A stretch of 64,000 nt of DNA from positions 44,839,810 to 44,903,809 of the forward strand of contig CM037593.1 in NCBI GenBank assembly GCA_021018995.1. Reading direction: 5' to 3'. Numbering within the stretch: the stretch's first letter is position 1; each line of letters opens with the position of its first letter. Below, piece after piece: positions 25,741-51,582 of this stretch. A program made the position numbers and the translations under genes. Source of the stretch: Chloranthus sessilifolius. Its lineage: Eukaryota; Streptophyta; Magnoliopsida; Chloranthales; Chloranthaceae. Under the pieces are notes generated by a model. That model did not search any database. It saw only the letters and a list, made by a program, of their open reading frames with translations, and was not told where the DNA came from.

Positions 25741-26828
25741 ATGCCCAACCACAACCAAGCAACACCGACTCAAGTCACCACCGTGGACCTCTTCGATCGA
25801 TCCTCCTTCCAATCTTCCACCCTAATTATTCGCATTCAACCCTCTGCTACTTTCACCACACCAACGAGATATCCTTCGCCCCCGCATCCATCGACCCTGA
25901 TCACTCGCATCGCCCCACTGAATCCACCTCCTTATCCAAAATTCACTTAGATACGAGTCCATTCCTTTAGGGCTAGGAGACCATTCTTCCGTAGTCACCC
26001 ACTAGAACCTTCAACCCCTCTAAATCCAGAACCAACGCCATTACCGCTCCCTTTATTCGATTCTGAACTCGAGTACGGAGATCACTTTCTCTAAACTACA
26101 ACCCAAATTGCTACATGGATAGAAAGTGTCACCCGAAAAACTCCAAGTCAAGATAACGAAATAACCACCGAGCGTTCACTGAATCTAGAAGAAAGTGAGC
26201 CAGAAGAAGTGAAGAACATCCCGACCCGTGCGAGGCACTGGTCTCCGCTTTCTTAGAAGAGGACGATTACAGACAATACCTACCACCTTGGAGCGGCACC
26301 ATTCAAGTACGCGTTCCGAACTCGAATTTTACTCACTTCACAAATACATCTGCGTCGAGCCGCATTGGGTTCGGTCAACAATCGACTTGCCCGATTCTCA
26401 AATCGGGAACCAATTATCCACCTTTGCCTTTCCCTCGAAATAAGGATTTCACGAATGCACAACCACCAGAGGGAAATATGAGAGAAAGAGAGGTTAACTT
26501 ACCTCCCCCACCTCACATCATCCCTTTACCAATTCCTGCACCTCAACCATTCCAACCACCCACACCTAAGGCCCATCAGCCAGACAAAGAAACTGTGCTC
26601 AAGCCAGGACAAGAATACGACCTTCTGCGGCATCTCCAGAATATCCTAGCTCAGATATCCATACTAGAACTCATCAAAAAATCGCCTGACCATCACTGGT
26701 TGTTGATTAGGACACTTAAAGACATGTAAGTGGATGAGGATACGACCCTAGATGAGCTTCATCAAATCACCTCGGTCATGGCGCAACCTCTAGCACTCAC
26801 TTTTACAGACGCAGACATGCTCAAAGAG
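25741..26828 (+). pseudogene. element A gag-protease linker (broken, proline-rich)
   Basis: Open pieces at 25741-25950 and 26424-26729 are rich in Pro, Thr and Ser. The end of the second (YDLLRHLQNILAQISILEL) matches the conserved segment that precedes the protease in Tat polyproteins. Stops and frame changes separate the pieces. Confidence 0.6.
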
Positions 26829-26859
26829 TCACTCCGCGGGAGTGCAGCCCCATATATCT

Positions 26860-27302
26860 TAAGGTCATAATTAGAGGATTCTTCATACCACATGCACTCG
26901 TTGACACAAGAGCAGGACTTAACATCTGCCCTCTCACCACGTTAAAGACGCTTGAATATATGAAGTAGGATGTCAGGCCCACTCATAACTTATGATGGCT
27001 TACGTCGCTTTGTCAAAGGAACTATCAAGTTACAGGTTCGCCTCAGGCCTGTAACGAAAGACGCTACCTTCCATATTTCTGATTCTGCTAGTACGTATAA
27101 TCTCATTTTAGGAAGAAAATGGCTGAAGTCAATGAAGGCCGTCGCATCCACATACCATAAATGCATCAAATTCTCATACGAGAACTCCATCATCCATATA
27201 TACGCTGATACACCCCTTCGAGAGATGGATACTGATTACGCGGTGAGCATACCGACCTCTCACGATTATGTGTTGAACATAAGTTATATTCAAAAGACTT
27301 GA
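26860..27302 (+). pseudogene. element A aspartic protease (dead)
   Basis: Retropepsin-type protease that would cleave the polyprotein. The active-site segment reads HALVDTRAGLNICPL at about 26893-26938, where D-S/T-G-A/S is expected; the glycine is arginine here. A TAG at about 26967 and a one-base frame change follow. The domain then continues in the open piece 26970-27302, with YDGLRRFVKGTI and the flap-side segment YNLILGRKWL. The order and wording fit Tat proteases. Confidence 0.75.
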
Positions 27303-27455
27303 ACCCCTGATGAGACAACAGTTGCGGAAGTCCGTCCCCCTACCCCTCCTAGTTTTCCCTCAGCGCGTCGAAAAAAATTAATGAGAAGAGAGGCTGGCCC
27401 AGACCTCGCCAAACTCTATGCTATTAACCCTACTGCAACAAAAGGATGAGACCTT

Positions 27456-27812
27456 ATGTACCAACTTGGATATGTTCCCCACACCGAACTCGGTAAAAAT
27501 AAGCAAGGTCATGTAGGACCCACTGTCCCAATACAAATACGTAAGCACATAGGGTTAGGTTACCAGTCGGACGGCCTGCAAGCCGACTTGTCCCCTACTT
27601 CACCAAAATGGTCTCTATATGACCACTTCTCTTATGGGACCACTGAGAAAGCAGATGTGCCAAAGCATAAGGAAGTGTCCTTCACTAGATCCCAAGAAGT
27701 GGAAATTGAGCAAATGACTAAAGCGTTCAATGATTTAACAAATTTAAATCATGATATTGATAAATCGCTCGAAGGAGTCAAGCCCATGTTTGACACTAAG
27801 GAATTTATATAA
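27456..27812 (+). pseudogene. element A G-patch segment after protease
   Basis: The first residues (MYQLGYVPHTELGKNKQG ... GLGYQSDG) fit a G-patch, a glycine-rich nucleic-acid-binding motif found after the protease in Tat elements and in some retroviruses. The ATG is not a real start; this is an open piece of the gag-pol frame. The remainder is a charged linker ending at TAA 27810-27812. Confidence 0.65.
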
Positions 27813-29130
27813 GAGAGGAGCGAAGGACCTCCAGAACTTGACCCACGAGTAGAAGATTGGGAGTCCACCGATGACGATGACTTTCACATAACAGCCTTGC
27901 AAGATGGAGAAGAGCACTTACGCTTAACATGGGAAAGAGATGACCCCCCACAAGAAGATACTAACTCGTATAGCATCCACCTCGGCCTTAGCCTTGAGGG
28001 ATGGGAATGTCCTTGGGACTCCCCTTGTATCGCCTACCCATACCAACCCCGCTGTAGGGCATGCACCAGCTTATTAGAACACTTCACTAGTTGGATCCAA
28101 CACTCTACAAGAGAAGAATCGAATCCCTCCAACCTCATGACCACTGATACAGGTAATGACCTACCAGCTTAGCTACCGACAAAAGAAGCAGAAAATCCCA
28201 ACAGTCATCTGATTGACCTAGGGGGAAGAACCCATACCGCCCTCATAGGATCTGAAGAGGAACATGAACTAGACACTTTTACATCCCCAGATTTGTCGCA
28301 ACTCTAAATATTTTGGAAATCTTTAGAGTAAAAGTGGCAACCTTCCCCGAGTGATGACGAGGACTACTGGATAGATCTCCCTGCACTCAAGTTAGAGGAG
28401 CAAGCTAACCTAGGACTTCAAGCACTATCTGATCAAGAAGATGAATTCGATACTATCTTTAACTCTAACCTGGAAGGATGGGAATGTCCTTGGCAATCCC
28501 CCTACATTCTTCACCATTATTAACCTTGTTGCCAAGCATGTGCGCTCATCTTAATGTATTATGAAGATCAAGGAAAATAACTCACTGCCCTTGAGGATCC
28601 TTTGGGAGATCCCCCTCGGTGGGATGAACAACATTATTACAGCACAAAGGATGATAGTTCAATTGACTACGATCTTCAAAGCTTCTTCGAAGAAGAGACG
28701 ATCAATGTGGCAGAAGAAATCCAAGAGTTAGTGTCACTGTCACCAACGTCACTCATTCAAAAGATCTCATCAGATGAGGACTCCAAAAAAAAAATTGCCA
28801 AATTCACAACATGTCCGCATTTTTTAAAGAATCGCTCGAACGACTCCAGCAGCCGTCTCGCTCCCTCAACTAGAGGAAGAAATTCTCCCGGTGTCTCTTG
28901 AGGTGACTGACCCTATACCATATTTATTATCAAAAATAAAAAAAATAGAAAAAATAAAGAACCCTAAAAATTCAGAAATACAAAATCTAAAAAAATAAGA
29001 AAACCCCAAAAAAGAAAAGGAACTCTTCGTCCCGAGCCAAATTTGTGGCCAACAAGGAGACTTTTCTCCTAAGGTTTCTATCACATTCCCCGCACAAGGA
29101 CTTAAAGCATCCCGGTTAAACAATAAGCCA
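27813..29130 (+). pseudogene. element A protease-RT spacer with a repeated Trp/Cys module
   Basis: Acidic spacer in shifting frames. A module of about 30 residues occurs twice: EGWECPWDSP ... CRAC at 27994-28065 and EGWECPWQSP ... CQAC at 28473-28540. Both keep GWECPW, SP, a tyrosine and a C-x-A-C pair. The modules sit about 480 bp apart with degraded acidic text between. From about 28905 to 29025 the sequence is very A-rich with no open frame, at the place where Ogre elements carry an intron. I do not recognise the module. Confidence 0.55.
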
Positions 29131-30430
29131 GTGATCATACCGGACGAGATACTTCGTGACTTTGAGAGAAGAATCAGTAGTCTTGACCTTCACCTTACCA
29201 AAGATTTCTCAGTCAGAGATTGTGTCGATGAAGGATTACCTCTCGCAAACTCAGATCCCCAATGTAGAAATTTTGCAGTATACGAACTTATCGAGGACGA
29301 AGAAAGAACACCAGTTGTCGAGGAGGCACTCGACTTCCAACGAGTTATCAAGTGCTTCGATGAGCAAACCCAAGTTGCCGCAGAACCCATGGAAGAACTT
29401 AACTTTGGCACTGAAGAGAAACCCAAGAAGCTACTGATTAGCATAATGCTCAACTCTAAGGAACGCCAATAAATTGTACAAGTCTTGCAAGAACACCTCG
29501 ATTCCTTCGCATGGTTCTATGAGGACATGCCCGATCTAGACCCAAGTTTAGTAGAATATCGCCTTGTCTTAGAACCCGATGTAAAGCCTATTAAGAAGAA
29601 ACTCCGCAGGATGCACCCACAAACTGCCCTCCACGTTAAAGAGGAAGTCGACAAGTTACACAAAGCCAAATTTATCCGAGTATTTCTTTACCCTAAGTGG
29701 GTCGCCAACATAGTACCTGTCACTAAGAAAGACAGCAGAGTACGGGTTTATATCAACTTTTGAAACCTCAACCAGGTATGCCCAGAAGATGACGTCCCAC
29801 TTCTACACATTGACACTCTAGTCGACAACACCGCTGGACATGAGATGCTATCCTTTATGGACGGTTTCTCTGGATATAATCAGATCAAATTAGCAGAGTC
29901 CGATCAAGAAAAGACTTCCTTCACCACACCATGAGGAACATACTGTTATGTCGTTATGCCTTTTGGGTTCAAGAACGCAGGAGCCACGTATCAACGCACC
30001 ATGATGGCTATTTTCACGACATAATACATAAGTGTGTAGAAGTCTACGTCGATGAAATATTAGTGAAGTTCCAAACACAAGTAGGGCATGTTGAAGCACT
30101 CCGACTAGTGTTACAAAGAGCTAATAAATATCAGCTAAAGATGAAAAGAAATGTGTTTTCGGAGTCACTTTCAAAAAATTACTTGGTTTCATAGTTAGCA
30201 AGCGAAGGATCGAAGTTGACCCTGCAAAAGTCAGAGCCATCCTCGAGATGCCACCTCCCAATAATATCAAAGAGTTATGAGGCCTGATAGGAAGATTGCA
30301 ATTCATCAGAAGATTTATCTCCCAGCATTCGGACACATGCGATCCTTTCTACAGACTACTTAAAGGAGGAGTTGAGTATAAATGAGATGACCAGTGTCAG
30401 CAAGCCTTTGACAGCATCAGGAAGTACCTC
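29131..30430 (+). pseudogene. element A reverse transcriptase (dead)
   Basis: RNA-dependent DNA polymerase that would copy the element. From 29131 the frame runs through FAWFYEDMPDLDP, VANIVPVTKKDSRVRVYINF, MDGFSGYNQIKL and VMPFGFKNAGATYQ. Stops occur at 29470 (TAA), 29761 (TGA) and about 29932 (TGA where TGG is expected before GTYCY). A one-base loss near 30015 shifts the frame. The catalytic YVDD box reads YVDEIL at about 30042, so one catalytic aspartate is glutamate. It continues after a further shift near 30175 into the thumb. Confidence 0.85.
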
Positions 30431-30860
30431 CTTAATCCGCCAATACTATTGCCACCTGTCTCGGGAAGACCCCTAATTCTATACCTCTCAGAGAATGACA
30501 AAGCCATGGGAGTAATTCTGGGACAATATAAAGAAGGCGGCAAGAGAGAGAGGGCTATCTACTACCTCAGTAGGACGATGGTCGAATACGAACGAAAATA
30601 TACTTCAATGGAGAAGACTTACCTCACATTGGTATGGGCCTCTACCAAATAACGACACTACTTTGGAGCACATAAAATACTAGTACTAGCCTGAATGGAC
30701 CCTCTGAAGTATGTATTCGAAAAGCCTTTGACATCAAGAAAGATCGCTCGCTAGCATATGCTTCTGCAAGAATTCGATATCACTTACATCACGTAGAAGT
30801 TAATCAAAGGACAAGCAATCACTAATTACCTTGCATATCTCTAGCTGCCGAGTGATGAGC
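30431..30860 (+). pseudogene. element A RNase H (first, retroviral-type)
   Basis: RNase H that removes the RNA strand during reverse transcription. The open piece 30449-30652 includes AMGVILGQ, AIYYLSRTM and YTSMEKTYLTLVWA, the usual order after RT in Ty3/gypsy pol. Stops at about 30650 and later break the rest. Confidence 0.75.
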
Positions 30861-31320
30861 TTGTGCATGCGGATTTCCTCGATGAAGACCTATTAACGAT
30901 TCATAACGAAGAGCCCGATAAGACTTCATGGACCCTTTATTTTGACGGTGCTCTAAATCATAAAGGAAAAGGCATCAGGATAGTCCTCCTAAGCCCAAAG
31001 GGAGTTGTCACACCTAAAGTTTTTCAAGTAGATTTTCCTGTCACTAACAATGTCACAGAATACGATGCCTTTATAGCTGGACTACGAGCAGCGCTTGAAT
31101 TAGGTGTTAAACAGTTAAAAACCATCGACGATTCCAAACTAGTAATTTCACAAGTCATAGGTGAATGAAAAACTAAGGAAAGGAGACTAATGACATACCT
31201 AGAAACCGCTCAATATTTAGTAAAAAAATTTGAACAAATCTCTTTCATGCACATCCCTAGATTAGAAAATGAGCTCGCAGATTCCTTAGCCACACTAGCC
31301 TCAGTCATCTAAATACCAAT
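30861..31320 (+). pseudogene. element A second (archaeal-type) RNase H
   Basis: A second RNase H domain is typical of the Tat lineage. Visible: WTLYFDGALNHKGKG, NNVTEYDAFIAGLRAA (EYEAL is usual), IDDSKLVISQVIGE and NELADSLATLAS. The catalytic positions are therefore mostly acidic, with one E-to-D change. A TGA at 31166-31168 and further stops end the open frame. Confidence 0.8.
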
Positions 31321-31669
31321 CGGGCAAAATACCAAGACCTTCATCGAAAAGCTGACAGTACCTGCCCAAGAGGTAGCATGGACCGTCAAGAGAGAATTGC
31401 CCGTCCTCCCCACAGGTGCAAGACCGAAAGAAGTAATCACCCCGAAAAAGCACGTCAAGACAGAAACCGAAGTCGCCATGTTTAGATTTGAAATATCATC
31501 GGCCAACGATGGACAACCATGGTATTTTGACATCTGGAACTTCTTAAAATAACAACATGTCCCTCCATACGCCACGAAGATCGAACGGAATACTATAAGG
31601 AACCGATGCGCTCGATTATGGATACTCAACCAAACATTATACAAAGAGGTCTTCACTAAAGGAGTACTA

Positions 31670-32751
31670 CTACGATGCGTTACGAATGTCGAAGGATAAT
31701 ACATCATCCGAGAAGTACATGCCAGTGCTTGCAGCGCCCACTCCATTAGACAGAGATCGCCGATCAAGTTATACGATAAGGCTACTTCTGGCCGATAATG
31801 ATCAGAGATTGCCACCTCTACGTCCAATCCTGTAAATAATGTCAAGAACACGCTGCACTCATCAAAGCTCCATTAGTTGTATTGAATACTATGACCTCGC
31901 CATGGCCATTTTCGATGTGGGCCTTTGATGTCATTGGGCCTTTCACAGACACTGTTGGAAACACTCACAAACACGCGTTCATTCTTATAGCGACCGAATA
32001 CTATACCAATTGGGGAGAAGCTGAATCCTATGTCAGAATCACCGCTTCAACACTCGTAAAGTTTATTATTCAGAATATCATCACCAGGTTTGGAATACCC
32101 AGGATGTTTGTCACTGACAACGGACCACAGTTCATCGCGGAGAAGACGAATAAGTTATACAAGAAGTACGGAATCGATCTACGCCACTCATCACCGTTCT
32201 ACCCTCAAGGCAATGGACAGGTAGAAGCTATGAACAAAATACTAATTCAAATCCTAAAACACATAGTAGAAATAAGCAATGGAGCCGATTTGCCTGAACG
32301 ACTATCAGAAGCACTCTGGGCCTATAGGACCTCTATTTGTACGGCCACTAGCCAAACTCCCTACCTCCTTACCTATGGGATGGAGGTAGTCCTACCATAT
32401 GAGATACAAGTACCATCTTTATGGATTCAACTCGATGATGAGCTATCCTTGAACGATGGGAGAATTGCCCTACTCATTAATCTAGAGCAGCTCGATGAAA
32501 CACGTCTAAGGGCAGGTGATCACACTCAGGTATATCAGAGGAGATTGGCCAGGGCTTATGATAAGAAAATCCTTGAACGAACCTTTAATATTGGAGAATT
32601 AGTCTTGAAGAAAATTATGCCTTCTAAGCACGCCCATCCGAAAGGAAAACTAAAACCAAACTGGGAAAGCCCTTATGTCATAACTGTCGCATACCCTGGA
32701 AATGTCTACAAACTGACGAAACAAGATGGGGAAGAACTCCCTAGCCCTTGA
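31670..32751 (+). pseudogene. element A integrase
   Basis: Enzyme that joins element DNA to the chromosome. The zinc-binding part at 31670-31880 (EVHASACSAH ... C-x2-C) has stops, including one inside the C-x2-C pair. The core from 31882 to 32751 is open for 289 codons and keeps the D, D, E triad: AFDVIGP, VTDNGPQF and GQVEAMNKIL. It is followed by ALWAYRTS and a C-terminal part with GELVLKK and LKPNWESPYV. This is the best-preserved coding segment of A. A long minus ORF at 31309-31851 is its shadow. Confidence 0.88.
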
Positions 32752-34462
32752 AATGCCATGTACCTTAGAAAATATTACCCTTAGCCTTCTGATCATCGCA
32801 TCCTATGGTTAAATACTTATACTTATCACCCCTGTAGTCGTCACGACCCATTCATTGGTCGTATGCCTTTAATTCTCAGAATATCCCTAAGACCTCCGAT
32901 TTATCACCCACTTTTTTTCACTCGGGCAATCTGATTAAAGGACTAGTGATATATCTAACCTCTTTCAAAAGTATAAGTAACACTCGATCCTTATTTCTCT
33001 TCCCCCATCATTGGTGGAGACGTTAGAGCAAAAAAATATAAAGATGTTAGGTTCAATCAAAACTTATTATTCTTGCGTTAGCAGGATGCTTTCAAAATAC
33101 ATATATAAAAAAAATCAAGTGAGAGCATTACGACGAATGAACAAGTCAATGAGCTCAGGGAAGCATAAGCAGACCGTGAGGACACCCCTGGTAACATTAC
33201 TAGAAGTGTATAAGCAAGCTACGAGGGCGTCCCTGATGTCCCCATACTACTGGAGGTCGTCGTAAGGTGGTAGGAGGATAAACCCCTGCTAACCATAGAA
33301 TATGAGATTTGATGGTGCCGAAACATGACGAAGAGCTCGATCATGGCCCTCTGAGGAAAAGATTGTTACCTACCCCTTTTGGAAAGCATTAGATACAAAC
33401 TACTCCTCGAGTCACTGAGCCTTAACCCCCTCTACTATTTTTATTTTGGACGATAAATCAGAAGCCTTGCAGGATATTCCTAGAAATGAAATCGAAAATT
33501 GATGAATGATGACTGATGCAATCACCCAATATACCTACCATACTTCTCCCCAATAACCATGGGATAGGATGACCACCACCTTAGGATAGACCCCCCCATA
33601 TACACAACTGACCTAATCGTAAAGAGACCTCCTCGGTTCGATGACAACATCGATCAATTTTTCTTTAATACTAACTCACCCAATACCCATGACTGCTTAT
33701 AGACCCAAAGTGCTTATCTCGAAACCCGGAAAAGCTTCACTGCATCTTGACGCTGGGGCATTTTTTTAGATTAGAAGAAGAATCATATCAAAAGCGCCGA
33801 CCTGTCCACGAAGAAGATAAGGAACGATGAAGTTACCATTCGAAAAGTGCTATCGAAGATACAATATTGCTGATCCTACCACGCTCCTACACTGGGGTAT
33901 TTTTATTTTATTGTATTGTTATTATTTCTATTTTTAGCTATTTGTTTTCCCTATTGCATTATTTTCATTTCCAAAAAAAAAAGAAAAAAAAAGAAGAAAA
34001 AAAAAAGAAAAAAAAAGAAAGAAAAAAATAGAGCACATATCTCTCTTTTGCTACCAGACTCCGGCCTGAGACACTTACCCCCTTGACAACTTGCAAGGGG
34101 GAGAACAAAAACTACTGACAGTATTACTCTCACATGTGTAGATATGAAGCAACCTTCAACTATCACCGGGCCAGCTCAGGAAGCATCCAAATCCTAATGA
34201 TAGTCGATGGCACTAAAGCAGTTAAAAAATAAGAGTAGATGCAAGAGGTAACTAAAAGAAAAGGAGCCAATTAGGTAAATCTAAACAAAAAATTTCTCTA
34301 TATATGTCAAATCTTTTCAATTCTTTTTACACTTATCACTGGGGACACCCCCCCTATATATACAACAACACACATGCTATAGATACATAAACACACACAC
34401 ATCACCTACTCCCTATGCTGCCGCTGGGACAGTCGACCACTGCTATCCCCAGTATCATCAGC
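32752..34462. other. element A region between integrase and the antisense gene
   Basis: Untranslated. ACTGGGGTAT-like words occur at about 33888 and ACTGGGGACA at 34338. A purine-rich tract of A with scattered G fills 33975-34030. Short ORFs on both strands are not recognised. If the antisense gene is transcribed, its 3' untranslated region should fall in the upper part of this interval. Confidence 0.55.
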
Positions 34463-35968
34463 TCAGAGGTCCACAGACTGGTCCTCCAAAAATACAATCT
34501 CGGCACTTGGAGTCCTTGGAACCTCTAAACGACGAGGCGCCACCACAGATCCCCCCTCACTCGTCTGGCTAATAGACCGCCTCGATCGAGAACGAGGAGG
34601 ATACCTCGCAAGAACCTCATGAACAATAGGATCCTCACGAGCATCACCCCTGACACGATCATGGGACGTGTGACGAGACTGCCCGGTCGAGGAACCCATA
34701 GCCTTCAAATCTGATCCACCAAGCTGACGAGCTAGTCTATATATCCTTCACTCACTTTGCATCAGATGATACTGCAGCTGATCTAGGGATGCCTGCATCT
34801 CTGCTCACGTCGTCCGATGCGTCGCCTCTAATGCCTCGGTTTGAGTCCTCTGTGTGACCGTCATCTCAATGACTAGGTCCTCCTGACTTTGCGTCTCCCC
34901 AACGACTCATCTCGCCTCAGGAGTGGCGTGCGCTCGCACCACCTCTAGGCGCGCCTCCTCAAGCTGACCAACCTACATAATCGCACCAAGTCAAACGAAA
35001 ACTAATGTATATATGAATAAAATAAGAAACTTTGAAAAGGAAAGGATTATACCAGATCCAACCTCTCCTTCAGGAATCGCCCAACCATCTCAGCAGTCAC
35101 TGGATCAGCAGGAGGCATAGAAGGAATAGCGAATGTAGGCGGCTACAACAAGAATAAACAAATACATCAGAAAAATACTATAATGACAAATAAATCATGA
35201 ACACAATAACTAAAACATACTTGAGTATGGATCGGAACAGACCCTTGAGGGGGGAGCCTCAGGAGCGGAGTTCGGAACAACCTGCACAAAAAAAACAAAT
35301 AAAAAAACTGACGCAAGACATGTTAGAACAAAATGAAGATGAAATAACCTAAAATGGAATTACACCACAAAAAAAAGAGGAAACTATACCTGACTCTCGG
35401 GACGTAGAGAGGCAGCAGTTGCCTCCCTCGTCTGAAGATCCTCGGCAACCCGACGCTAAAATACAACGTAATGTTAGTAAACTATTACGAAAGTGAAACA
35501 ACGACACCCGACAAACTAATGCAATGACACAAACAAGATAAAAGATTGAATGGAACTCACCCAACGATCTAGCTTAGCTCGAAGCTGAACCATTGCTAGA
35601 TCCTCCCGACTAGAGGAAGCGACTGAAGATTGATGAAACACAAGAACGGGACCTCCAACAGCGAGCTCGGCTCTCTACGAATAACAATAAACACATAAGT
35701 TGGCAAGCTCACAATGTTAATAATTAGCAAAACCATATATGTAAAGACACCTACCAATCGGTTAATCTCAGATCGTAAGCTGGCCTCCACCTCTCGACCG
35801 GCCTGCTGCTAACAGCGTAACAACTCGATCATCGTCGCCTGACGAGCAACCTCTCCCTCTCTCTGAGACTGTCTAAAACCAAATAAAACGAGATACCACA
35901 ACCATGTCAGAACAACCAAAAGACTGAGTCCGCATAATATAAAAAACAAAAAACATAAATTAACCCAC

Positions 35969-36660
35969 CAGGAGCCGTCGAGTCTTCGCTAGCCGAGCCC
36001 CCAACTCCTCCTCCACTGCCCTAGCCTGAGCAACTGAGGAGGCTAAAGACTGCAGCATCTCCTCATCCAGATGAGGATCACACCCCATCAGCTCTATTTC
36101 CCTATGGAGAGCGTCTAAAGCCCCCCGCATGCTCACGGTGAGATGGCCCTGCTCCAATGCGGCCAACCTCTCCCTTAAAGCCGACGCCGACTCCGGCCCA
36201 CCGATCGCGAAAGATCCACTCCCATGGAAGGGACGTCTGCCTCATCAAGCGCCCCCATAATCCTGGAGAGGCGCCCGTCACCCAACGCACTAAACAACCG
36301 CACTTACTCCTGGGCGTCTGCCTCATCAAGCGCCTCCGTAATCCTGGTCCCCCCAGCTCTAAAATTCGCTACCTGAAGCGCCATCCGCTCCGTAAAATTA
36401 TGGCCAGGAGGGCCGGCCATCCTCTTTGCCACACTGTGGCGAATCTCTGGAGGGACTCCCTGAGCGAGCCCCAGTTGCCGTACCACTGGAGATGTGTGGA
36501 TCCTCTCCACCCTCTCAAAACAATGGACCCATATGTCCACATCAAAGAAGGGCCGGCTAAACTAAATCACCGACACGTCCGCATCCTCCTCGTCCGCATA
36601 CGACCTCCAAATCACCAACAACAAAGCAAGCAAGCCGACCCCACAACGAAGGCTCAGATC
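35969..36660 (-). pseudogene. antisense gene exon 4: PMD C-terminal part and first coiled coil
   Basis: Acceptor TCTTTTAG|GATCTG, donor CTCCTG|GTGGGT. It includes WRSYADEED, then CFERVERIHTSPVVRQLGL, the segment that closes PMDs. A near-duplicate of about 35 nt (CTGCCTCATCAAGCGCC, plus-strand wording) occurs at 36238 and 36319. After a TAA (36304-36306) and a frame change the exon continues as a heptad-rich stretch, ALDALHREIELMG ... AVEEELGARLAKTRRLL. The 180-codon plus ORF at 36157-36699 is a shadow. Confidence 0.7.
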
Positions 36661-36934
36661 CTAAAAGACCGAAATGAAATAAAAAAAACACACACATGAC
36701 GATCTATACCTGCCCCACGTGCATATCCTCAAAGAGATCGTGCGCCCTCCCCACGTGCATCCGCGAGAACATGAATGTCACCTCCAACGGAACTCCTGGA
36801 CGAAGAAAAGCGAAATGATCATACGCCCAGAACTAAAAAAGAAGAACAACATAAAAGAAACACTGAGATCATCACTACAACTAAAAAAATTAATCAAACT
36901 AAAGACACAATGATAGCAATTAACTAAAACTCAC

Positions 36935-37657
36935 CTGGATGAATAGAAGGAAACCTCCAATCGACACGACGCCCTGCCCTCGACGGTAAAGCTGCTCATT
37001 GAGATGCGCCAATGCTGCCACACCCTATGTGTAGGAAGGGACTCGATCCAAGTCCCCAAGTACCATAAAAAATAACCTGATGACGCATCCTCAAGTCGAA
37101 GAAGAGAAGAGTACTGCACCAAGGAAGTGCATCAAGAATGCTCAGAGCACCCTATTCGCAACCAACCCCGGCTCCACCACGAGCTCCCAACCCGCTACTA
37201 CCGCACAACGCGCCTCATAAGTCGCCTTCGCCTCCGAATGGCGCCTCGGGGGGACGAAGCCACTCGCAAACGTATTGAAATACCAAGTGACTCGAACTAC
37301 ACCTGGCCCCGAGCTGCTCGACCTATACGGCACACCCAAAATATCTTCGCACACCTCCAAGTAATGTCCTGCCATCTGCCCCATAATTGGCTCACCCTCG
37401 AAACGAATACCGGTAATGCGGACCCAGTCCTCTGGATTCGGCAACATCATACCAACTGGAAAGAGGAGCGCCTGGTGCTCCTCCCTCCACCTCTCCAAGA
37501 TTGCCGCGATCAAGCCACGATCAACCTGAAAGGGCTCCAGCTCTAGGATTAGTCCGAAATCGAAAGACACCAACCGCGCCCGTTGAAACTCTGGCAAGGC
37601 ACGGTACCAAGTATGAGGCTCGGTCCATGTCGAGCTGATAGCCACCTGCGGGGGCTC
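36935..37657 (-). pseudogene. antisense gene exon 2: core of the plant mobile domain
   Basis: Acceptor TTCAATAG|GAG, donor ATCCAG|GTGAGT, 723 nt in phase 0. Visible PMD wording: DRGLIAAILERWREEH, FPVGMMLPNPEDW, ITGIRFEGEPIMG, then FLMHFLGAVLF and GVAALAHLNEQLYRRG ... IGGFLLFIQ. Stops: TGA at 37142-37144, and TGA and TAG further on; the TAG stands where SYTWG is normal. The plus ORF 37127-37546 is a shadow. Confidence 0.8.
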
Positions 37658-38455
37658 CTATTGAACGAAATACAAACAATAACAGTAAGACTAAGTAAGA
37701 CTAACACATACCTATGATGAAAGATAAATAAATTTAGAACTAAAAAAATAAGTTAAATATGCCCCAAACATAATAGCAAGTTGCAACAAACACACAGACT
37801 ATGATAAGGGCAACTGAATAGAAACATGACCTATCTCTAGATACTGTCATGATGCATGAGTGAACACACAATCAATCATTAATGCAGGTTTGACATAAAT
37901 TAGAAGGGTTTCCAGAGCCTAATAAGCCTATTTCATAACCTAAGTGGCTAAGAAAATGGAAGAACTCTTGCTCATGAATGCTTACCCGGCCTTGAGCAAA
38001 GAAATCCTCCAGCGGGAAGTGTCTGCGATCTCGATGATCCTCAGCCACACCCTCAGCTCTCTCACCCTCAGCTCTCTCACCCTCGACCCTCTCACCCTCG
38101 TCCTCAGTGACTCCCTGCTCAATCTAGAGCGCCTCCTCCCTGACCCCCGACTAGTCAACCTCTAATACCTCCTCTCTGACCACCTCCCCAACATCCACCT
38201 CCCTGACAACGTCGATCCGAGCCTCGAAAGTCTCACCCATCTCCGCCCCTAACATTCTCTATAACTCAAAAACAGTAATGTCGTGCCTACCACCACCCTT
38301 AAACTCTATCCTAAAATGAGGAGGTCAAAAAACTGAAGAGAATGGAAAGAACAGCGCCTGAAACGGACGATCAGATCACGAAATATCATAAAAACATGAA
38401 AACTAGAGCACAAAGAAGCAAGAAAACAGAGAATCGAAAATGAAAAGTTTTAAAC

Positions 38456-38464
38456 TATTTATAA
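38456..38464 (-). promoter_or_regulatory. TATA box of the antisense gene
   Basis: On the minus strand TTATAAATA lies about 200 nt before the ATG at 38255, leaving a pyrimidine-rich leader of about 170 nt. Position and sequence fit a plant core promoter. Confidence 0.6.
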
Positions 38465-38471
38465 GACCCGC

Positions 38472-38663
38472 CAAAATCGCACGCCCGAATTCAGGCGCTT
38501 AAACCAATCACGCACCACAATCACGGTGCTTAATTATGATTACACGACTAGCCCTAAGCTCGTAAACCAAAATCGCGCGCCCGAATCCAGGCGCTTAAAC
38601 CAATCACGCACTATAATCACGACGCTTAATTAGGATTACACGACTAGCCCTAAGAGCATAAAC
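38472..38663 (-). repeat. two copies of a 96-bp tandem repeat upstream of the antisense gene
   Basis: Copies 38472-38567 and 38568-38663 start CAAAATCGC and contain AGGCGCTTAAACCAATCACG and ACACGACTAGCCCTAAG. They differ at about ten positions. They end 8 bp before the TATA box of the antisense gene, so they look like a duplicated proximal promoter block. Confidence 0.85.
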
Positions 38664-40511
38664 CAATCGTCTCCCACTCAAACTAACCGAACCATCTGAT
38701 TGCGCGTACCCTATTAATCGCGTAATCACCTCAAGCGTCCACACAGTGGCACGCGAATGCCAATGGCCACCCGTACAGCGACCAGCCACAGCCTTAATCA
38801 CGGGCCCAGTATCCTGCATTTAAATCGATCAAACGATCGAAAACTAGCGCTTAAATATCATCTGACGCTCTGAACGCGCATCCACCCTCTAGTGCAATAT
38901 TAATTTACACGCTCGGAGTGAAGCGCACAATTCCTCATAAACACAAAGCAAAAAATACCCAAGACAACGCGTTCACAGGCCTAAAATAAGTAATCTCCGA
39001 CACTAATTATTAGACAAAACTATGCCCTTGTTAAGGCCGATCCAAAGCATTCAGATTTAAAGAAATATGCACTCCGATAACTAAAAGAAAATGTTCCAAA
39101 CTACGACCAAAATCACAAAAAATGCCCCGACACCGTTTACACACCCCAACCAAAACTGACTAAAAGAAAATGCACCAAACCAAAAACAAAACCGAAACAA
39201 ATATCCCCAACATCACCTAAACACTCCAACTAATACCAAGACTAAAGAAAAAAAAAATGCCCCCCATCATCCATTCACTTGAAACTGAACCAAAAAAAAT
39301 TGCTCCAAGAATACCCCAGATCAGAATAAATAAATAAGAGCAAATCAAATCTAGATAAATAAGCATCACACTCAAAACAAATTTAAGCAAGCTACCAAAT
39401 AAACCAAAATTTATTAAATTGCCACAAATGAAAAGAAAAAATATAATCACTTCATAAATGAATAAATAATTATAAAATACACCGAAGGCATACCCTATGA
39501 ATATACAACTCAAAATAAGAAACCAAAAATCCGCACATTCTGGCAGTGCACGAATCCGAATTTATTTGGAAAAATAAAAATCCCATCCTCCTCTCTTCCC
39601 TTAGCATGACAGCAATTCGACCGCTACCTTAAATTACCAATCCCGTCCATTCTCAATAACCCATGCAATAAGCACAACTATTCGGGTCCAACACCCGGGA
39701 TACAAAATAGAGAGAAAGAAAAGACATTAATAAAAAAAAATGCCCTAAACCACAAAGAAAATGCCCCAAAACTTCTAATTCTAAAACTTGAAATGAAATT
39801 CTCAAAACAAGAACCCAAAGCTTTTAGTTCACACTTATATAAACTATGCCCCCTGAATTACCAAATGACAAGTGTCACACCTTTAAACCCTTCCAATCTA
39901 ATTAAATCTAAACCAAACACATACCCCCTGAAAGACCACAATCCATGACAACTCAGATAAACCAACAATCACACAACACTTAACCCCCTAAGGAACATCA
40001 ATCTCCCCAAGTCTAGATAAACCAATAGGATTTAAACATTTAACATCCATCCAGAACCTTTGAAAACTCACACCTTTTAAGTCTCATGTTGAATTAAACA
40101 AAAGACCAAAACTCAAGTTGAATTGAACCTTAAACCAAACAAAACTTTAAACAAAAAAGCCTTTCTAAAATAAGACCCTAACTTGTTTAGGACAAAAAAA
40201 ATGCCCTTAATAAAACAAACGGAAACAAGTAGACCCTCTAAACCAAGCTCAATAGAGCAAATTAACCCCAGGATAAGCCTTGAATAAATTAGAAATGAAT
40301 CTTAAAAAGTAAAACCAAAACTAAGTCAAACAAATCAGATAAATCCAACTAATCCGCTAAAAAACTCAAATGAATAAACAAATAAAAGAAATGCCACTTT
40401 ATTCATAACTCAGAAGTTTTATAAGTATCACCGGTGGCATATCTTCTGAATTTACAACCTAAAATGAAAACCTAAAACTTTAACCTACAACCCAAAACAA
40501 AGATTGGGCTC
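38664..40511. other. element A tail, part 1 (before the insertion of B)
   Basis: A/C-rich, no gene seen. Words such as AAAATGCCCC and AAACCAAAACT recur from about 39040 to 40500. The target duplication of element B is GGCTC at 40507-40511. Confidence 0.6.
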
Positions 40512-42518
40512 TGTTGGTGTGTTTGTCTTCCCTCAAATTAGGGTCTAAATTCGCCAATAAAACTAGGCAGAACACACTCGCACAAACCTACAAGTAATTA
40601 GGGTCTGTTGTAGAAAGTTTTACAAAGATGGTGAGTAAGGGGATGTCCACAGAGAGGTTGGTTTAAAAATATGATAAATCTCCAGATCTGTATGAGATCT
40701 GGCACCCTAACTAATGCTACGTTAGCTAAAAGACAGGGGAGAGGTTTAAAATGGATTGTTACTTAAACTAAGCTAAAATTAAACATAGACTAGCTTGGAT
40801 CGAGTTTGGGAACTTAGATCTTGCAGGGGAAAAGAGTAAAGAAAATAGAAAATGGAGAAGAGTAGCTTGGAGATTGGTCTTCACTGAAATTAGATTTAAT
40901 TAATCATGCTACAGAGGTTCAGAGTACACATTTCCCTCAACTGGCTATAAGCACAGCTGCAGGGTAGAAAGCTCCACTTCAAATCGTAGGATCCACCTGG
41001 TCTTAAGGCTATGATCTATCCACTTTAATGGTCACAGACCATCCTATAGACTTTATCGAATCCATGGATTTGCAGTAGAAGAATCCAATTGGAGCCTGAG
41101 CTTGGACTAATCTTAAGGTTATGATCTGTCCACTTTAATGGTCAAAGACCATCCTAGGGATCTCCTCCAAAGCTAAAGCATCAATTAGAACAATTAAAAC
41201 TACTACAGATGCTATAATTCCCAGGTCACAGACTCAAGGAATCACAGGAGTATCAGATCCAGGGAGATCGGGTGGTATCCAAGAGGCCTACCAGTTAAGT
41301 AGATGAGTTGATCTACAGACTCCTCTACAAAAATTCGATTGATCACCAAATGAAACCAAAGGAAATTTAGATCTAATTAAAGCATTAAAAATAGTATTTA
41401 CATTGCAATCAAAATCACTCTACAATGGAAATACTCTCAGATCTGTAGTCTGTGCAGCTGGGAACCCACAATAGCAATCTTAACCTTACCCAATTACTGA
41501 TCTAACCTCTCTCCTCGCTACTCTAGGGGAATTAGCCAACCATTGTTGGGCTAAAGGAGGGAAAATAGAACTGCTCTGCAAGCGCTAGTCTCCATAATTT
41601 GGCTTAGATCTCTATATATAGCTTTCTCTATTTTTCCCGTCAAAAATCCCTTTTAGAAGGTTCTCAGAGTTTGTTAGAGTTCTGTTAGAGCACGTGGGTC
41701 GGTTAGGATTTCCTAGGGCATCTTCTGGAACCGTTGTGCCGATCACCAAGTGCCTCGGGTTGCGTGCAGCAGGTCACCAAATCATAACATGTGCACAGCT
41801 AAATTTCTGAGAAGTTTTGCACACGGTTTTGATAGGTTAGGAAGCTTTCGACAGGTTCAAATAGAGCTTTTTAGACCTTTTGCTAGGTTCTCAGATCTCT
41901 TTGATAGGTTCCGATCTGCATGCAATTGTCTCTATAGGGTTGCTTTCACTCCTATCGAAAGGCTCAAGCACCCTTCGATAGGTTCTGTTCCAGCGTCTTC
42001 ATCTCGATAGGTTCAGGAAACCATTCGATAGGTTCCCTTTATACCTCAGGCAAGTTTTCGATAGGATGATTTCTTCCTTCTTTTCAGCTGCTCGATAGGT
42101 TCTTGGATCCTATCGAACTCCTCAATTCACACGAATCCATCCTTCTTCTGCCTTCAGATCCTATCAAAACCTTCTCAACTGCACGAATTCCTTCTTTCTT
42201 TGCTTTCAGCTCCTATCGAAGTCTTCAGGTGACCATTCAATAAGATGTTTTCAGCCTGTTTTCACTTCTTTCACCTTGCCCTACTGTAGCCAGGCACTCT
42301 AAGGGTCCAGTGATGTGTTACCCTCTGGTGTGCTGTTGCTGGGTTTGTCCTGTGCTAGGAGATGGCCCCTTTTTGGGAATTCTTGAGTGGTTTTTTGTAT
42401 TAGTGTCCTCTTTTATTGCTGTCTACAAAATGTACTCGACAGAGGCTTATTAGTGTGCTCACAGGTCTATCAATGGTCAGGTTAAAGGGTGAAAAGTGAC
42501 ATTTTTCACCACTTAACA
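40512..42518 (-). repeat. element B 3' LTR (2007 bp)
   Basis: On the plus strand it runs from TGTTGGTGTG to CACTTAACA. The TATA box on the minus strand is CTATATATAG at about 41612-41622. Eight exact copies of CGATAGG or its complement lie at about 41950-42222. Compared with the 5' LTR it lacks a block of about 27 bp near 41608 and a 19-bp duplication. Confidence 0.93.
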
Positions 42519-42530
42519 TACCCCCAAACC
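42519..42530 (-). promoter_or_regulatory. polypurine tract of element B
   Basis: On the minus strand GGTTTGGGGGTA directly precedes the LTR start TGTTAAG. This is the expected priming site for plus-strand synthesis. Confidence 0.8.
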
Positions 42531-44459
42531 TAAGCTTTGCTAGTCCCTGAGCAAAGGAGAATTAAAAGGAAAAAAAAATGCCACTTTCGTAGGGAGCACA
42601 GATGCATTTAACATATGCACCAAGCCTTTTAAACCCCTAGGTGATCCCCAGTGGAGGAGTGAAGTCTCCTGAGGGTTTTCAGTGAAGATACCCACAAACT
42701 TCTCCAATGAGGTTAGTTAATAGTAGTGCAATTTATCAAATAGAGTTTCAGTAAAATAGAATAAATTCACACTGTGTCTTTTCAATTTATTAGAGGAATT
42801 TTTACAGAAAAAGTCAGTTCCAAACTTGAAAGTCTGCTGCAATCTTTCACCATCACTCAGCTCCTATCAAGGCATTGCTCAAAAGAATTAAGGCATGGCT
42901 CACCTTTCACTTGAGAATTCTATTTTGATACTACCCCCACCAAATTTGGATTTCAGACCCAAGTCTCACCGGGGCTGTCACTCTCAATAAAATTAGAAGG
43001 GTGCATCATTTCATACAGCTCAAGAGCAGTTTCAGCCCTCAAATAGGATTGCAAGCATGAGCATAGGCATTGCTTTAGTTTTTGAAATTTTCTAACTCTT
43101 TTCACCATAGATTAAACAGATCCTTATCTCCACATGACAGCTCAATCCATTTCAGATCAGTAAGGTCTTATTATTGGGTTGTAATGTGGCTTAGGGATGA
43201 GGTTTGTAAAAGAAAGAAAAGGGTAGAATGGAATTCAGAATTGAGAAATCAGTAAAGGTAAGGAGGTGATTTGTAACTCAACCTTTTTCATCTCAGCATA
43301 GATCCATCTTCTTTTTGAATTTTTAGAGCCAAAGTGGCCAGCTTTTCTCCTCTTTCAAAATATCCAATGAAGTGACTTCTCTTTCTCATTCTTTTGTTTG
43401 CTTTTCTGTTTTTCTTTTCTTTTTGTATGCTTTTTGCACTTTTTCTCCATTTTTTTTTTATATGGGCTGGAATGCCACAATACCACCAAATGTGCTTCTT
43501 TCTTTTTCAACCAATCATCGAACCTTGCTCCTCTAACCACACTTCTCCTTTTTCCTGATTTCTCAGATCAAGAGTAAACTGAAATAGGTTAGGGCTTTTG
43601 GGTTCAAATTTTCTAATTTTTATCGAAGAAAAGTTGAGATTTTAAAGGCTCAAATGGTGTGTATCAAGGGCAGTTCAAAGGTGGGAAAATTTTAGGCTCA
43701 AACTGTCCAAGGGATGGCCTTACTTCATGTCTTCAATGTCATGAATGTTGTTAAGCTGTTTCAACTTGGAATTGCCTAACTTCTAGTGATTAAAATTAGA
43801 GCCCATCAATCCTTAGAGCAGAAAAAATTGTCAAGACACTCTTCAAAGAAAATTTTTCAGGCTCAAATCTCACTGGGTATGGCCTTCCATCAAATTTTTC
43901 AGGGGTGTATCTTCTCAATCTTCTCTCATTTCAGGTTTACTATACATCAAAATTATCTTTCACAAATTGTTGACATTTACCTCATGAAGTCTGTTGGACT
44001 ACAGCTTATTTCAGTTTCAAACAATTTTTTTTTTTTTATTTCCTCATTTTACAAAAATTCAAGTGAGAATTTACTCTAATTAATTCCAACCACTCCTTTT
44101 TAGCCTAGCTACACTAAAATTAACTAATTTATTGGCATACATGCCATACCCCCAAACCTAAACTAAACAGTGTCCTCATTGTTTACAGCATGGGGGTGTA
44201 GCAGTTTATTAACGGGCAAAAACCAAAGCAAGGAGACAACTAAAAGAAAAAAATAGTTTATTAACAGAGGTTAAATAGAGCATAAATAGAGCATTTTATT
44301 ACAATGGTCAAGCACAAGGATACGAAAAGTAGGCCGGTGGACAAAATATCCTAGGCAAACGAAAAAGCCTCCCCCTGGCTCAGGGATATCCGCAGCCTGC
44401 ATTAGGTGGAAGAGGAACTGTAAGCCAAGAGGGGAGGAAGAAAAGGAAAAAGAACAGGA
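42531..44459 (-). other. untranslated 3' tail of element B
   Basis: No gene seen. The 200 bp next to the tract contain TTTCGTAGGGAGCACA and AAACCCCTAGGTGATCCC, nearly the same as in element C at 19560-19640. The far end (44141-44195) repeats the pattern CCCCCAAACCTAAAC and AGTGTCCTCATTG, also shared with C. ORFs at 43355-43540 and 43786-44079 are low-complexity. Confidence 0.6.
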
Positions 44460-44759
44460 TCAGGGGGCAAGGGGAGGGGTGGCAGAGGAGGATGGTTGCG
44501 GAGAAGCCGGTGGCTCGGTCTTCAACCTCTTCTTCTCCCTTTTGTCTTTTTTCTTTTCCTCCTTAGCGAGGATCGACTGTACCTCCTCATATTCATCCCA
44601 GAGGAATTGCAACGGATCTGGTTCCTTGGACGGTAGTGGCTCCAGCCTGAAGAGGTAGAGTTGAGTAGGAGTGAACGTGGGCTTGTCATCTGCCATGGTT
44701 ATGAGGAGGAGTGCAGAGGGTAGACGGAGAGGAATGGGGCGAAGTCGAGCCATCTGCAT
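44460..44759 (-). CDS. small ORF in the env position of element B (99 aa, unknown)
   Basis: It is open for 99 codons, or 78 from the internal ATG that starts MADDKPTFTPTQLYLF. It has an acidic middle, a Lys/Glu run (KEEKKKDKREKKRLK) and a Pro/Ser-rich end. No signal peptide or membrane segment is apparent, so there is no sign of an envelope protein. It lies about 930 nt after integrase, where Athila elements carry an additional ORF. It may be the remnant of that ORF. Confidence 0.4.
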   Translation of the reverse strand: MQMARLRPIPLRLPSALLLITMADDKPTFTPTQLYLFRLEPLPSKEPDPLQFLWDEYEEVQSILAKEEKKKDKREKKRLKTEPPASPQPSSSATPPLAP

Positions 44760-45690
44760 CTATTTAAGGTGGATGTATGAGGGAATATGAAGTAGTGCAT
44801 TCAATATCGCCGCCGTCGAGGAGAAGGAATGAATGGTTAATTCGACCAATCAGCATGGGGAACGAAATTGTGCATTAACTGGCAGCCTATATTTAGCGTG
44901 GGGAGTTACGCCGTGGGGCAGAAACCCTCGGGGTGTAGAGTTTAAAGACCGTGCTGTGCGCAGTTGTTCATGGTACATGTGGAGTAAAATTTCCGTGCAT
45001 CGCAGGTGTACAACAAGCATGGAAGGAGTGAGGGGGCGATTTCGATAGGATGAGTGTAAAATGTTGATAGGTTAAGGCTTTATATCGAAGTCGCACAAGT
45101 ATGGGGCTGGCAATTGAATGCTCTCGATAGGTTCAACCCATCCTGTCGAAAAGAATAAACATTGCATTCGATAGGCTGGGATGGCCGCTTGCGATAGGTC
45201 GGTATCCTGTCGAACGGAGGGTAGATAAAACATGCACTTCGTTAGGATGCGGATGGGTGGAAACAACCTCTCGATAAGTTGGGTAGTACATTTGTTACTC
45301 TTGTTGAGAGGTTCCAAGCAAAAGTCCAAAACCTATCGCAAAGTTGTTCTCACCTTTCGAGAGGTCTCAACAGCTATCTAAATCCTCACCAATCCTATCG
45401 ACATCAGCAGCGGACCTAGCGAAAAGTCTAAATGACCTATCAAGAGGTTCGATGAGCTCAATAACATGGCCTGTGTGTGCAGAGCATTTAGCCTTAGCAC
45501 CCAGCAACTCATCTGCTGAGCTACCAGTCAGCTAATTGGCCTCTGACCTTGTGCCTATGATTCTTAGACTGCGGGCGATATTGAGACGAAGCTTGATCTT
45601 GACATGGCCATTTTATTGCAAAAAATATTGTGGGAAAGAATCGAGGTATAAATCAAATATAATACATATGATACAAATCGAAGTCAGGTA
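44760..45690 (-). other. element B interval between integrase and small ORF, rich in CGATAGG words
   Basis: Between 45040 and 45440 there are six exact copies of CGATAGG or its complement and several near copies, the same word that fills the LTR. No coding sequence is supported. Confidence 0.6.
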
Positions 45691-46905
45691 TTAACCTGGA
45701 GGATCCTGAAGATCAATGGTCTCTTCAGGCTCACAAATATTGTCAATGCAAAGTTTCAGCCTCTGCCCATTGACCTTAAGGGTTCTGCCATCTGTAGGAT
45801 GCATGACTTCGACAACTCCGGATGGAGAAACATGTACCACTGTGAAAGGTCCATCCCATCTAGACTGCAACTTTCCTGGAAAGAATTTCATTCTGGAATT
45901 GAACAACCATACCTTGTCATTTGGCTTGAAATCTTTGCCTAGCAAATGTCTATCATGGAAGGCTTTGGTCCTCTCCTTGTAACTTCGGGCATTTACATAA
46001 GCTTCTAATCGCAATTCATCCAGCTTGGATAACTGGAGTTTCCTGTGAATACCAGTTGAGTGTAAGTCAGAATTTACTGCTTTAATGGCCCAATATGCTT
46101 TGTGTTGCACTTCAACAAGCAGATGACATGCCTTGCCATATACTAGTCTGAATGGAGACATGCCTATGGGGATTTTATAGGCTGTTCTATAAGCCCATAA
46201 GGCATCCGTCAATTTGCTGGACCAATCCCTTCTGTCAGTTCTCACAGTCTTCTTGAGAATATGTTTGATTTCCCTATTGGAAATCTCTACTTGCCCACTA
46301 GTTTGTGGGTGGTAGGGAGTGGCTACTCTATGGGTAACAGAGTATCTTTCCATCAGTTTGTCAAAATATTTATTATAGAAGTGGCTTCCCCCATCACTAA
46401 TAATAGCTTTAGGAAAGCCAAATCTTGAGAAGATGTTGTCTTTCAGGAATTGAATGACGACTTTGTGATCATTTGTCCTTGTAGCTATGGCCTCTACCCA
46501 TTTGGATACGTAATCCACAGCTACAAGGATGAAATTGTATCCAGCAGAAGGGGGAAAAGGTCCCATAAAGTTGATTCCCCAAATATCAAATAGTTCAACA
46601 AAGAGTATAGGCTGCAAGGGCATAGAGTTTCTCCTTGTAATACTGCCCATTTGCTAGCATCGATGACAAGCTTTACAGTGCTGCCGGACATCTTTGAACA
46701 GGATAGGCCAGTAGAAACCACTTTGAAGAACCTTGGCCGCAGTCTTGTTACCACTGAAGTGGCCCCCGCAAGCCTGTTCATGGCACATGGTTAGGATGTT
46801 TTGAAAATTAGTTTCAGGTACACAATGTCTGATCACCAAGTCTACACAATGCTTAAAAAGGTAAGGATCCTCCCACATGTAATATCGAATCTGTGCAAAG
46901 AACAA
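45691..46905 (-). pseudogene. element B integrase
   Basis: The zinc-binding part is at 46654-46905, with H-x-H ... C-x2-C as MCHEQACGGHFSG and CKACHRC. A single TAG (46651-46653) in place of a glutamine-type codon separates it from the core at 45691-46650, same frame. The core keeps [27 protein letters not shown] and [14 protein letters not shown]. The C terminus has [10 protein letters not shown] and SRWDGPFTV. Apart from that stop it looks complete. Confidence 0.9.
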
Positions 46906-47730
46906 ATTTTTGTCATCCTTGGTTCAATGTGGAGGGATCCTACCCACAGCAAGGTAATTGACAATATTGGCAAACCAGGGCATACTTATCTGTACAGTCA
47001 GAAGCTACTCATCTGGGAAGGAGTCATTGATGGGTAAGCTTTCTGTGTCAGTTGCTGGGATCCTTGACAGATGATCAGCCACCACGTTCTCAACTCCCTT
47101 CTTGTCCTTAATCTCTAAATTAAATCCCTGCAAGAGAAGAATCCATCTGATTAGTCGTGCTTTAGCTTCCTTTTTGGACAAGAGGTATTTCAAAGCTGAG
47201 TGGTCAGTGAACACAATAATTTTTTATTCCAGCACATAAGACCTGAATTTTTCTAAAGCAAAGACAATAGCTAATAGCTCTTTCTCAGTTGTAGTATAAT
47301 TCAATTGAGCATCAACCATTGATTTACTGGCATATGCTACCACAGAAGGTGCCTTATCTTTTCTTTGACCCAACACTGCCCCAATGGTAAAATCTGATGC
47401 ATCACACATCAGCTCAAATGGCAGAGAAAAATCAGGGGATTGCAAGATGGGAGCTATGATCAAACAAGTCTTTAACAGTTCAAAAGCATCTCGACATTCA
47501 TCATTAAAGTCAAAAGGAACATCCTGGCACAACAGGTGACAAAGAGGTTTGGAGATTTTGCTGAAGTCCTTGATGAACCTCCTGTAGAATCCAGCATGAC
47601 CCAGAAATGACCTAACTTGTTTGACAGTTTTCGGAGGGGGCAAATGAGCAATTAAATCGTTCTTAGCTTGATCAACCTCGATTCCTTTGTGAGAGACAAC
47701 ATGTCCTAGAATAGTGCCTTGAGTCACCAT
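46906..47730 (-). pseudogene. element B RNase H and RT-integrase linker
   Basis: RNase H text runs in one frame from about 47730 to 47005: CDASDFTIGAVLGQ, VVAYASKSM, TTTEKELLAIVFALEKFRSY, a TAA at about 47221, then [11 protein letters not shown] and [11 protein letters not shown]. Two further stops lie before the integrase zinc finger. Wording is typical of Athila pol. Confidence 0.85.
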
Positions 47731-48701: not shown

Positions 48702-48761
48702 ATGTTCAATCTCAGAGGTGAGGACCTTCTCTACCTCTGTTTCCTTCCATACTTCAGCTAG

Positions 48762-51252: not shown

Positions 51253-51554
51253 ACAACACTCAAAATTTGAATGCAGAACAGATTCTCAACACCACAAGTT
51301 GGATCAACCAAATTTTCTCACTATTCAAACAACAATATCAACAGATCTTAAAAATAACAGAGGAGTAGAGGGATGCAAACTACAGAGCAGTCACCAGCAC
51401 GATTCTTCTCTCATTGGCAGCCTTAGATATGATGAAATACACAAAAAATACTGAAAAACAACAAAACTTACAAATGCAGTTAGTAAAATCAAACAAACAT
51501 CTATTAATTTCTACCAATCTATGATCAAAACTTAGATCTATCAATTTTTAAACA
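51253..51554 (-). other. element B leader between primer site and gag
   Basis: No ORF; A-rich on the plus strand. This is the untranslated leader, where packaging signals would lie. Confidence 0.6.
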
Positions 51555-51582
51555 CACCTCCCCGGCAGCTGCGCCAAAAACT
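51555..51582 (-). promoter_or_regulatory. primer-binding site of element B
   Basis: On the minus strand TTTGGCGCAGCTGCCGGGGA lies next to the 5' LTR. It is close to the TGGCGCCGTTGCCGGGGA form used by Athila elements (aspartate tRNA in the usual description), with small changes. Confidence 0.8.

Follow-up and report, generated by a model that had tools for sequence, protein, structure and literature searches.

A decayed antisense plant mobile domain gene with nine predicted introns in a Tat-type retrotransposon of Chloranthus sessilifolius

How does a gene that appears to be divided into ten exons come to reside inside a retrotransposon, on the strand opposite to gag-pol, and what might such a gene encode? 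We addressed this question for a locus within a 64,000-nucleotide stretch of Chloranthus sessilifolius DNA (hereafter the window), for which an initial annotation, made from the letters alone, had proposed an antisense gene specifying a plant mobile domain (PMD), a chain of short coiled-coil exons and an Arg/Ser-rich tail. The predicted gene occupies the minus strand from 38255 to 34463, between an integrase and a nested insertion. (Note that, here and below, statements about published systems refer to the available excerpts of the papers cited.)

The carrier is a single long Ty3/gypsy element that spans 21359–58875 and measures about 24.4 kb once the nested retrotransposon is subtracted. Self-comparison placed its long terminal repeats (LTRs), both on the plus strand, at 21359–23854 (5′ LTR) and 56390–58875 (3′ LTR), with 91.2% identity between them; the LTRs start with TG and finish with CA, and AGGGG flanks the element outside both, as a 5-bp duplication. 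The sequence that follows the 5′ LTR looks compatible with a tRNA-Arg primer site. Pfam profile matches located gag-pol, with stops and frame slips present, at 24437–32751 on the plus strand, in the order gag, reverse transcriptase (RT), RNase H, second RNase H and integrase. The matches to Retrotrans_gag (31.1 bits), RT_RNaseH_2 (65.3 bits) and the integrase profile rve (37.4 bits) all exceeded their cut-offs, as did that of RVT_3, the second, archaeal-type RNase H by which Tat elements are recognized (29.8 bits against a cut-off of 21.6), which lies between RT_RNaseH and integrase, whereas RVT_1, with a cut-off of 29.6 bits, reached 18.5, and the RT is broken. A second RNase H between the first one and integrase is a mark of Ogre or Retand, in the Tat group (PMC6317226); with its PMD gene and its large size the element shows further traits of the Ogre subclade, and Retand shares with Ogre and with this element the position of the second RNase H. 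Judged from pol domain order and LTRs, the carrier is thus one Tat-type Ty3/gypsy element, and the antisense gene lies, as had been proposed, inside such an element; it is placed between the LTRs, past the RT, both RNase H domains and the integrase.

The second LTR retrotransposon (40512–53641, minus strand) is a nested insertion that lies within the outer element, on the upstream side of the antisense gene, and is separate from that gene. Its LTRs, found by self-comparison at 40512–42516 and 51583–53639, are 92.0% alike, and its gag, RT, RNase H and integrase matches are all on the minus strand; with its LTR ends moved two bases outward, the flanks resemble a 5-bp duplication that has one mismatch. 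The plus strand of the outer element carries, between its gag and RT, a weak match to the G-patch domain at 27450–27812 (E = 0.021, 15.2 bits, cut-off 22); this is one of the extra domains that plant Gypsy elements frequently have (PMC9289625).

The exon model of the antisense gene, all on the minus strand, opens with an acidic exon 1 (37986–38255, 90 codons, two stops). Exon 2 (36935–37657, 241 codons, three stops) carries the first half of the PMD and matches PF10536 with E = 8.7e-19 when stops are read as X; exon 3 (36710–36832, 41 codons) carries the middle, with no Pfam match when taken alone and a collinear place in the joined match; and exon 4 (35969–36615, with an alternative start at 36660; two stops and one frame slip) carries the end of the PMD and the start of a polar tail. 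That tail continues through exon 5 (35755–35868, 38 codons, one stop), exon 6 (35561–35674, 38 codons, with an ASSSREDL motif common to the taro protein P0001), exon 7 (35390–35455, 22 codons), the proline-rich exon 8 (35221–35281, 61 nt, one frame slip), exon 9 (35053–35142, 30 codons) and exon 10 (34463–34972, 169 codons and the final stop, three premature stops), which ends in an Arg/Ser-rich stretch and has no Pfam match. Within exon 1, a 15-bp tandem repeat of 3.5 copies at 38048–38099 gives rise to an acidic repeat in the protein.

Several features of the DNA are consistent with this division. All nine donors are GT, eight of the ten exons have a length divisible by three (the exceptions are exons 4 and 8, each with a frame slip), and all nine introns are in phase 0 once those two slips are allowed for. 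The predicted introns are 50% T and 12% C, and the exons are 35% G. A two-state hidden Markov model (HMM), supplied with neither splice-site nor frame information, returned eight T-rich blocks, the ends of which fall within 7 nt of model introns in 11 of 16 cases and within 30 nt in all 16; introns 7 and 8 were merged in this segmentation because it did not separate the 61-nt exon 8. Blind recovery of the T-rich introns, together with the donors and the common phase, upholds the ten-exon structure first proposed. The proposal of matching GT–AG borders holds for the donors throughout; for the acceptors it depends on where exon 4 begins. With a start at 36660, the third intron measures 49 nt and AG is found at nine of nine acceptors, whereas with a start at 36615 this intron measures 94 nt and ends in TTG, leaving AG at eight of nine. 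We tentatively favour the latter, so that exon 4 would begin where this copy has no AG rather than at the nearest AG: the start at 36615 gives the higher Pfam score, the T-rich block extends to 36609, and the taro protein P0001 lacks exactly the 15 residues that separate the two starts. Two further taro proteins leave the choice undecided, P0002 lacking the whole stretch and P0003 having nine residues there.

The product belongs to the PMD family (PF10536), its profile match lying above the curated cut-off of 34.9 bits, and a profile search has thereby confirmed the domain that had been read from short motifs. An uninterrupted open reading frame in exon 2 (37142–37657, minus strand) suffices by itself (E = 3.3e-10, 40.1 bits). 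When exons 2, 3 and 4 were joined, with X at stops, the match rose to 105.6 bits with exon 4 from 36660 and to 108.8 bits with exon 4 from 36615, and the match covered positions 7–314 of the 347 in the profile; without splicing, that DNA gave 71.6 bits and a match over positions 7–168. Collinearity of the PMD over exons 2–4 thus provides evidence for splicing that is independent of the border motifs. At the joint between exons 2 and 3, two of the three taro relatives continue ungapped, and the third lacks that stretch. Transposase_28 (PF04195), by which the antisense open reading frame of Retand is recognized, gave no match at E up to 1 when exons 1–10 were scanned in pieces. These findings establish, at the level of the predicted gene, a PMD protein of about 900 codons (901 in the ten exons, in line with the initial estimate) that would be encoded antisense, with nine T-rich phase-0 introns, between pol and the 3′ LTR.

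Whether the tail forms a coiled coil is less clear. From the second half of exon 4 to exon 10 the predicted tail is polar, and the description of short polar exons behind the PMD with an Arg/Ser-rich end in exon 10 stands. As for the coiled coil itself, the tail matched the coiled-coil family KASH_CCD with E = 0.0026 and 18.2 bits, far below the cut-off of 43.3, which speaks mildly for that part of the description, whereas a crude test for heptads, in which 372 of 500 shuffles did as well, was negative and speaks against it; by both measures taken together, a coiled coil in the tail exons is a weakly supported prediction. An origin of the short exons by tandem exon duplication was also considered; among 15 pairs compared, the best two were equalled by 11 and 16 of 300 shuffles, which is unconvincing.

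Upstream of exon 1, the minus strand carries a TATA-box-like TATAAATA (38456–38463), the sole TATAAA on that strand between 39200 and 38200. It begins at 38463, 208 nt ahead of the ATG with which the model opens, and lies immediately downstream of two 96-bp tandem repeats (38471–38666, minus strand) that are 90% alike and could serve as a control region. The earlier suggestion that the gene has a promoter of its own is therefore plausible on the strength of these putative elements. The start codon is uncertain because two further ATGs stand in the leader, at 38397 and 38389, between the TATA box and the ATG of the model. Farther out, the window contains six copies of AAAATGCCC, a count reached in none of 100 shuffles: five share one orientation and lie on the upstream side of the antisense gene, at 39119–40206, and the sixth, inverted, lies on its downstream side, at 33756–33764.

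The copy in the window is a pseudogene: across the 901 codons of its exons there are 11 in-frame stops, plus two frame slips, so that a reading of the gene as intact fails. When the exons were joined and the slips were not followed, frame 0 held 22 stops in 906 codons, and one reverse frame held fewer (18 in 906). We gauged the time since insertion from the LTR pair, which differs by 157 transitions and 45 transversions in 2482 aligned sites (K2P 0.087); at substitution rates of 1.3e-8 or 7e-9, this divergence corresponds to some 3.4 or 6.2 million years. C/T differences between the LTRs are commonest in CHG (25 of 145) and CG (19 of 140) contexts, compared with 49 of 637 in CHH, a pattern that looks as in a methylated element. 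With these context-specific rates, 9.8 stops (95% range 5–16) would be expected had the gene been intact at insertion, as against the 11 observed; a cruder setting that treats all transitions as deamination gives 8.0 (3–14), and a uniform rate gives 3.1 (0–6), which would leave an excess. With the context-specific rates, the stop load fits a gene that was intact when the element inserted.

A comparison with the rest of the element points the same way. Along the path that minimizes stops plus slips, determined without alignment, the antisense gene carries 13 in 905 codons, and the outer element carries 6 in 568 in gag, 12 in 900 in 26199–28900 and 18 in 1251 in pol; four non-coding stretches of the two elements, read on both strands, range from 22 in 668 to 49 in 832. 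By the same measure, the antisense gene read unspliced carries 19 stops and 7 slips, and the joined exons cost 15, whereas none of their 100 shuffles came below 18. All in all, decay appears to have gone about as far in the antisense gene as in gag-pol.

Three relatives came to light, all of them proteins of taro (Colocasia esculenta), here called P0001–P0003. Among the best 8000 candidates by shared words, they were found at E up to 0.01 in a protein search and again at E up to 1e-4 with an alignment as query, and the PMD region alone found none at E up to 0.1; since only the candidates sharing most words were scored, the absence of other relatives says little. The PMDs of P0001–P0003 are 32–33% identical to that of the window gene over 37–42% of the query. 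Like the window gene, the taro proteins combine a PMD with a long polar tail and a Ser/Arg/Gly-rich end, but the tails can barely be aligned, the match being marginal (E = 0.079) apart from the ASSSREDL motif. A search of PDB by sequence gave five matches, all with E of 0.11 or above, and among viral contigs none of 31 pattern matches was a relative by tblastn.

Much of what is seen here has precedents. Neumann et al. 2019 (PMC6317226) found PMDs in 57% of Ogre elements, where they likewise form an extra gene (pfam10536) in Tat-type elements; the prediction of those extra open reading frames called for a single frame with a minimum of 250 codons, and the available excerpts of the survey mention no introns in extra genes, whereas the window gene has nine predicted introns. 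Ikeda et al. 2017 (PMC5418596) distinguish the clades PMD-A1 and PMD-A2, which only Gypsy elements encode and which are found across angiosperms. The window PMD, too, is encoded by a Gypsy element; exon structure and orientation are not described in the excerpts, as against ten exons in antisense here. The host clades PMD-B and PMD-C are defined by a position outside transposable elements, and the window gene lies between the LTRs of one element. The extra genes of Grande (gene23), RIRE2 and Retand (PMC7264820, PMC11963269) are antisense, lie in the interval between pol and the 3′ LTR and have tandem repeats nearby, as in the window, and gene23 of Grande has its own promoter, as the window gene putatively has. 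Their products are often Transposase_28 or Smc-like, and no PMD and no introns are mentioned, the word intron appearing nowhere in either text. Retand, in particular, has the same pol domain order but Transposase_28 instead of a PMD, which counts against the reading of the window gene as an accessory gene of a Tat lineage. MAIN and MAIL1, which act with PP7L (PMC7156037), share the PMD family with the window gene, but they are host genes that silence elements, whereas the window gene lies inside an element and would have a long polar tail. PMD extra genes in Ogre, Gypsy-only PMD clades, antisense extra genes and the promoter of Grande gene23 are therefore already in print, and the gene is less unusual than the initial annotation had supposed; what appears to be new is the nine-intron antisense version of the Tat-element PMD gene, no intron-bearing antisense PMD gene being described in the open-licence literature as far as its available excerpts go.

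Taken together, these observations make it probable that the antisense unit is a decayed copy of an accessory gene of a Tat-type Ty3/gypsy lineage, the orientation of which would account for its introns. The gene would be transcribed from its own TATA promoter and its mRNA spliced by the host, whereas genomic RNA driven from the LTR would be the complement of the gene, in which the spliceosome would see no introns. Because the genomic RNA would carry only the complement of the splice sites, every new insertion would inherit the introns; this step, which the initial annotation had reasoned out, is what the strand of the gene and the known rules of splicing lead one to expect. As to what the gene does for the element, the likeliest role, which we put forward tentatively, is that its protein would be nuclear and that its PMD would benefit the element by acting on the chromatin of the host or on silencing complexes such as that of MAIN/MAIL1/PP7L. 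In a fuller scenario, such an antisense gene, with nine introns and a promoter of its own, would have been retained over long times by a Tat lineage as a transcription unit like those of the host; its introns, invisible in the sense genomic RNA, would persist through retrotransposition, and its PMD protein would counter host silencing of the MAIN/MAIL1 kind. We consider this scenario unlikely as a whole.

The two origins first envisaged, an accessory gene of the lineage and a captured host gene, fare differently. That one element recently captured a host PMD gene as intron-bearing genomic DNA and carries it as a passenger would agree with the introns, which indicate that entry was not by way of a spliced, sense-oriented copy, and host PMD genes exist (PMC5418596). 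The restriction of clades PMD-A1 and PMD-A2 to Gypsy elements and the frequency of PMDs among Ogre elements argue for the lineage origin instead, and the taro relatives, all three from one plant and 83–86% alike, look like members of a repeated family; capture of a host gene is accordingly improbable. A delivery of the gene by a DNA transposon that inserted in the element, for example a PMD-bearing MULE, is highly improbable. PMDs are known in MULEs (PMC5418596), and an 18-nt inverted pair (33755–33772 and 39111–39128) brackets the gene, two such pairs being observed as compared with none in 30 dinucleotide shuffles; yet no target duplication stands beside the pair, no transposase was found in the parts scanned, and the core of the pair is AAAATGCCC, whose six copies, five of them clustered in one orientation, mark it as a local repeat and not an end pair.

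It might also be that the antisense RNA, rather than a protein, is what matters, pairing with genomic RNA to tune or trigger silencing. Such a role has been discussed in the literature for antisense extra genes, 175 loci at PMD genes of the tea plant produce small RNAs, and the copy in the window can make no full protein. A role of this kind, though, needs no reading frame, whereas the PMD resembles the taro proteins at the amino-acid level and the stop load corresponds to decay since insertion only, which implies that the frame was kept until then; we regard an RNA-only role as distinctly improbable.

The predicted structure bears on how such genes are counted. In plant retrotransposons, two surveys of extra genes sought single frames, of at least 250 codons (PMC6317226) or at least 600 bp, and a 2025 review describes introns as generally absent from plant LTR elements (PMC12786077). 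Surveys of this design would overlook or fragment an antisense gene whose exons can measure as little as 61 nt, so that accessory genes with introns may be under-counted. Moreover, PMDs carried by elements have been proposed as a source of, or a counter to, the host silencers MAIN and MAIL1, and splice-aware models of element-borne PMDs would make that proposal testable.

Elsewhere in the window, a search of Rfam at gathering thresholds gave no match and no tRNA genes were found. Open reading frames are present on the plus strand at 9824–10828, with no Pfam match at E up to 0.5; their translation looks like a PP2C-type phosphatase. The outer element itself is flanked by inverted similar stretches, 18560–18965 with 61354–61748 (76%) and 19342–19501 with 60690–60849 (79%), which are perhaps parts of another repeat family.
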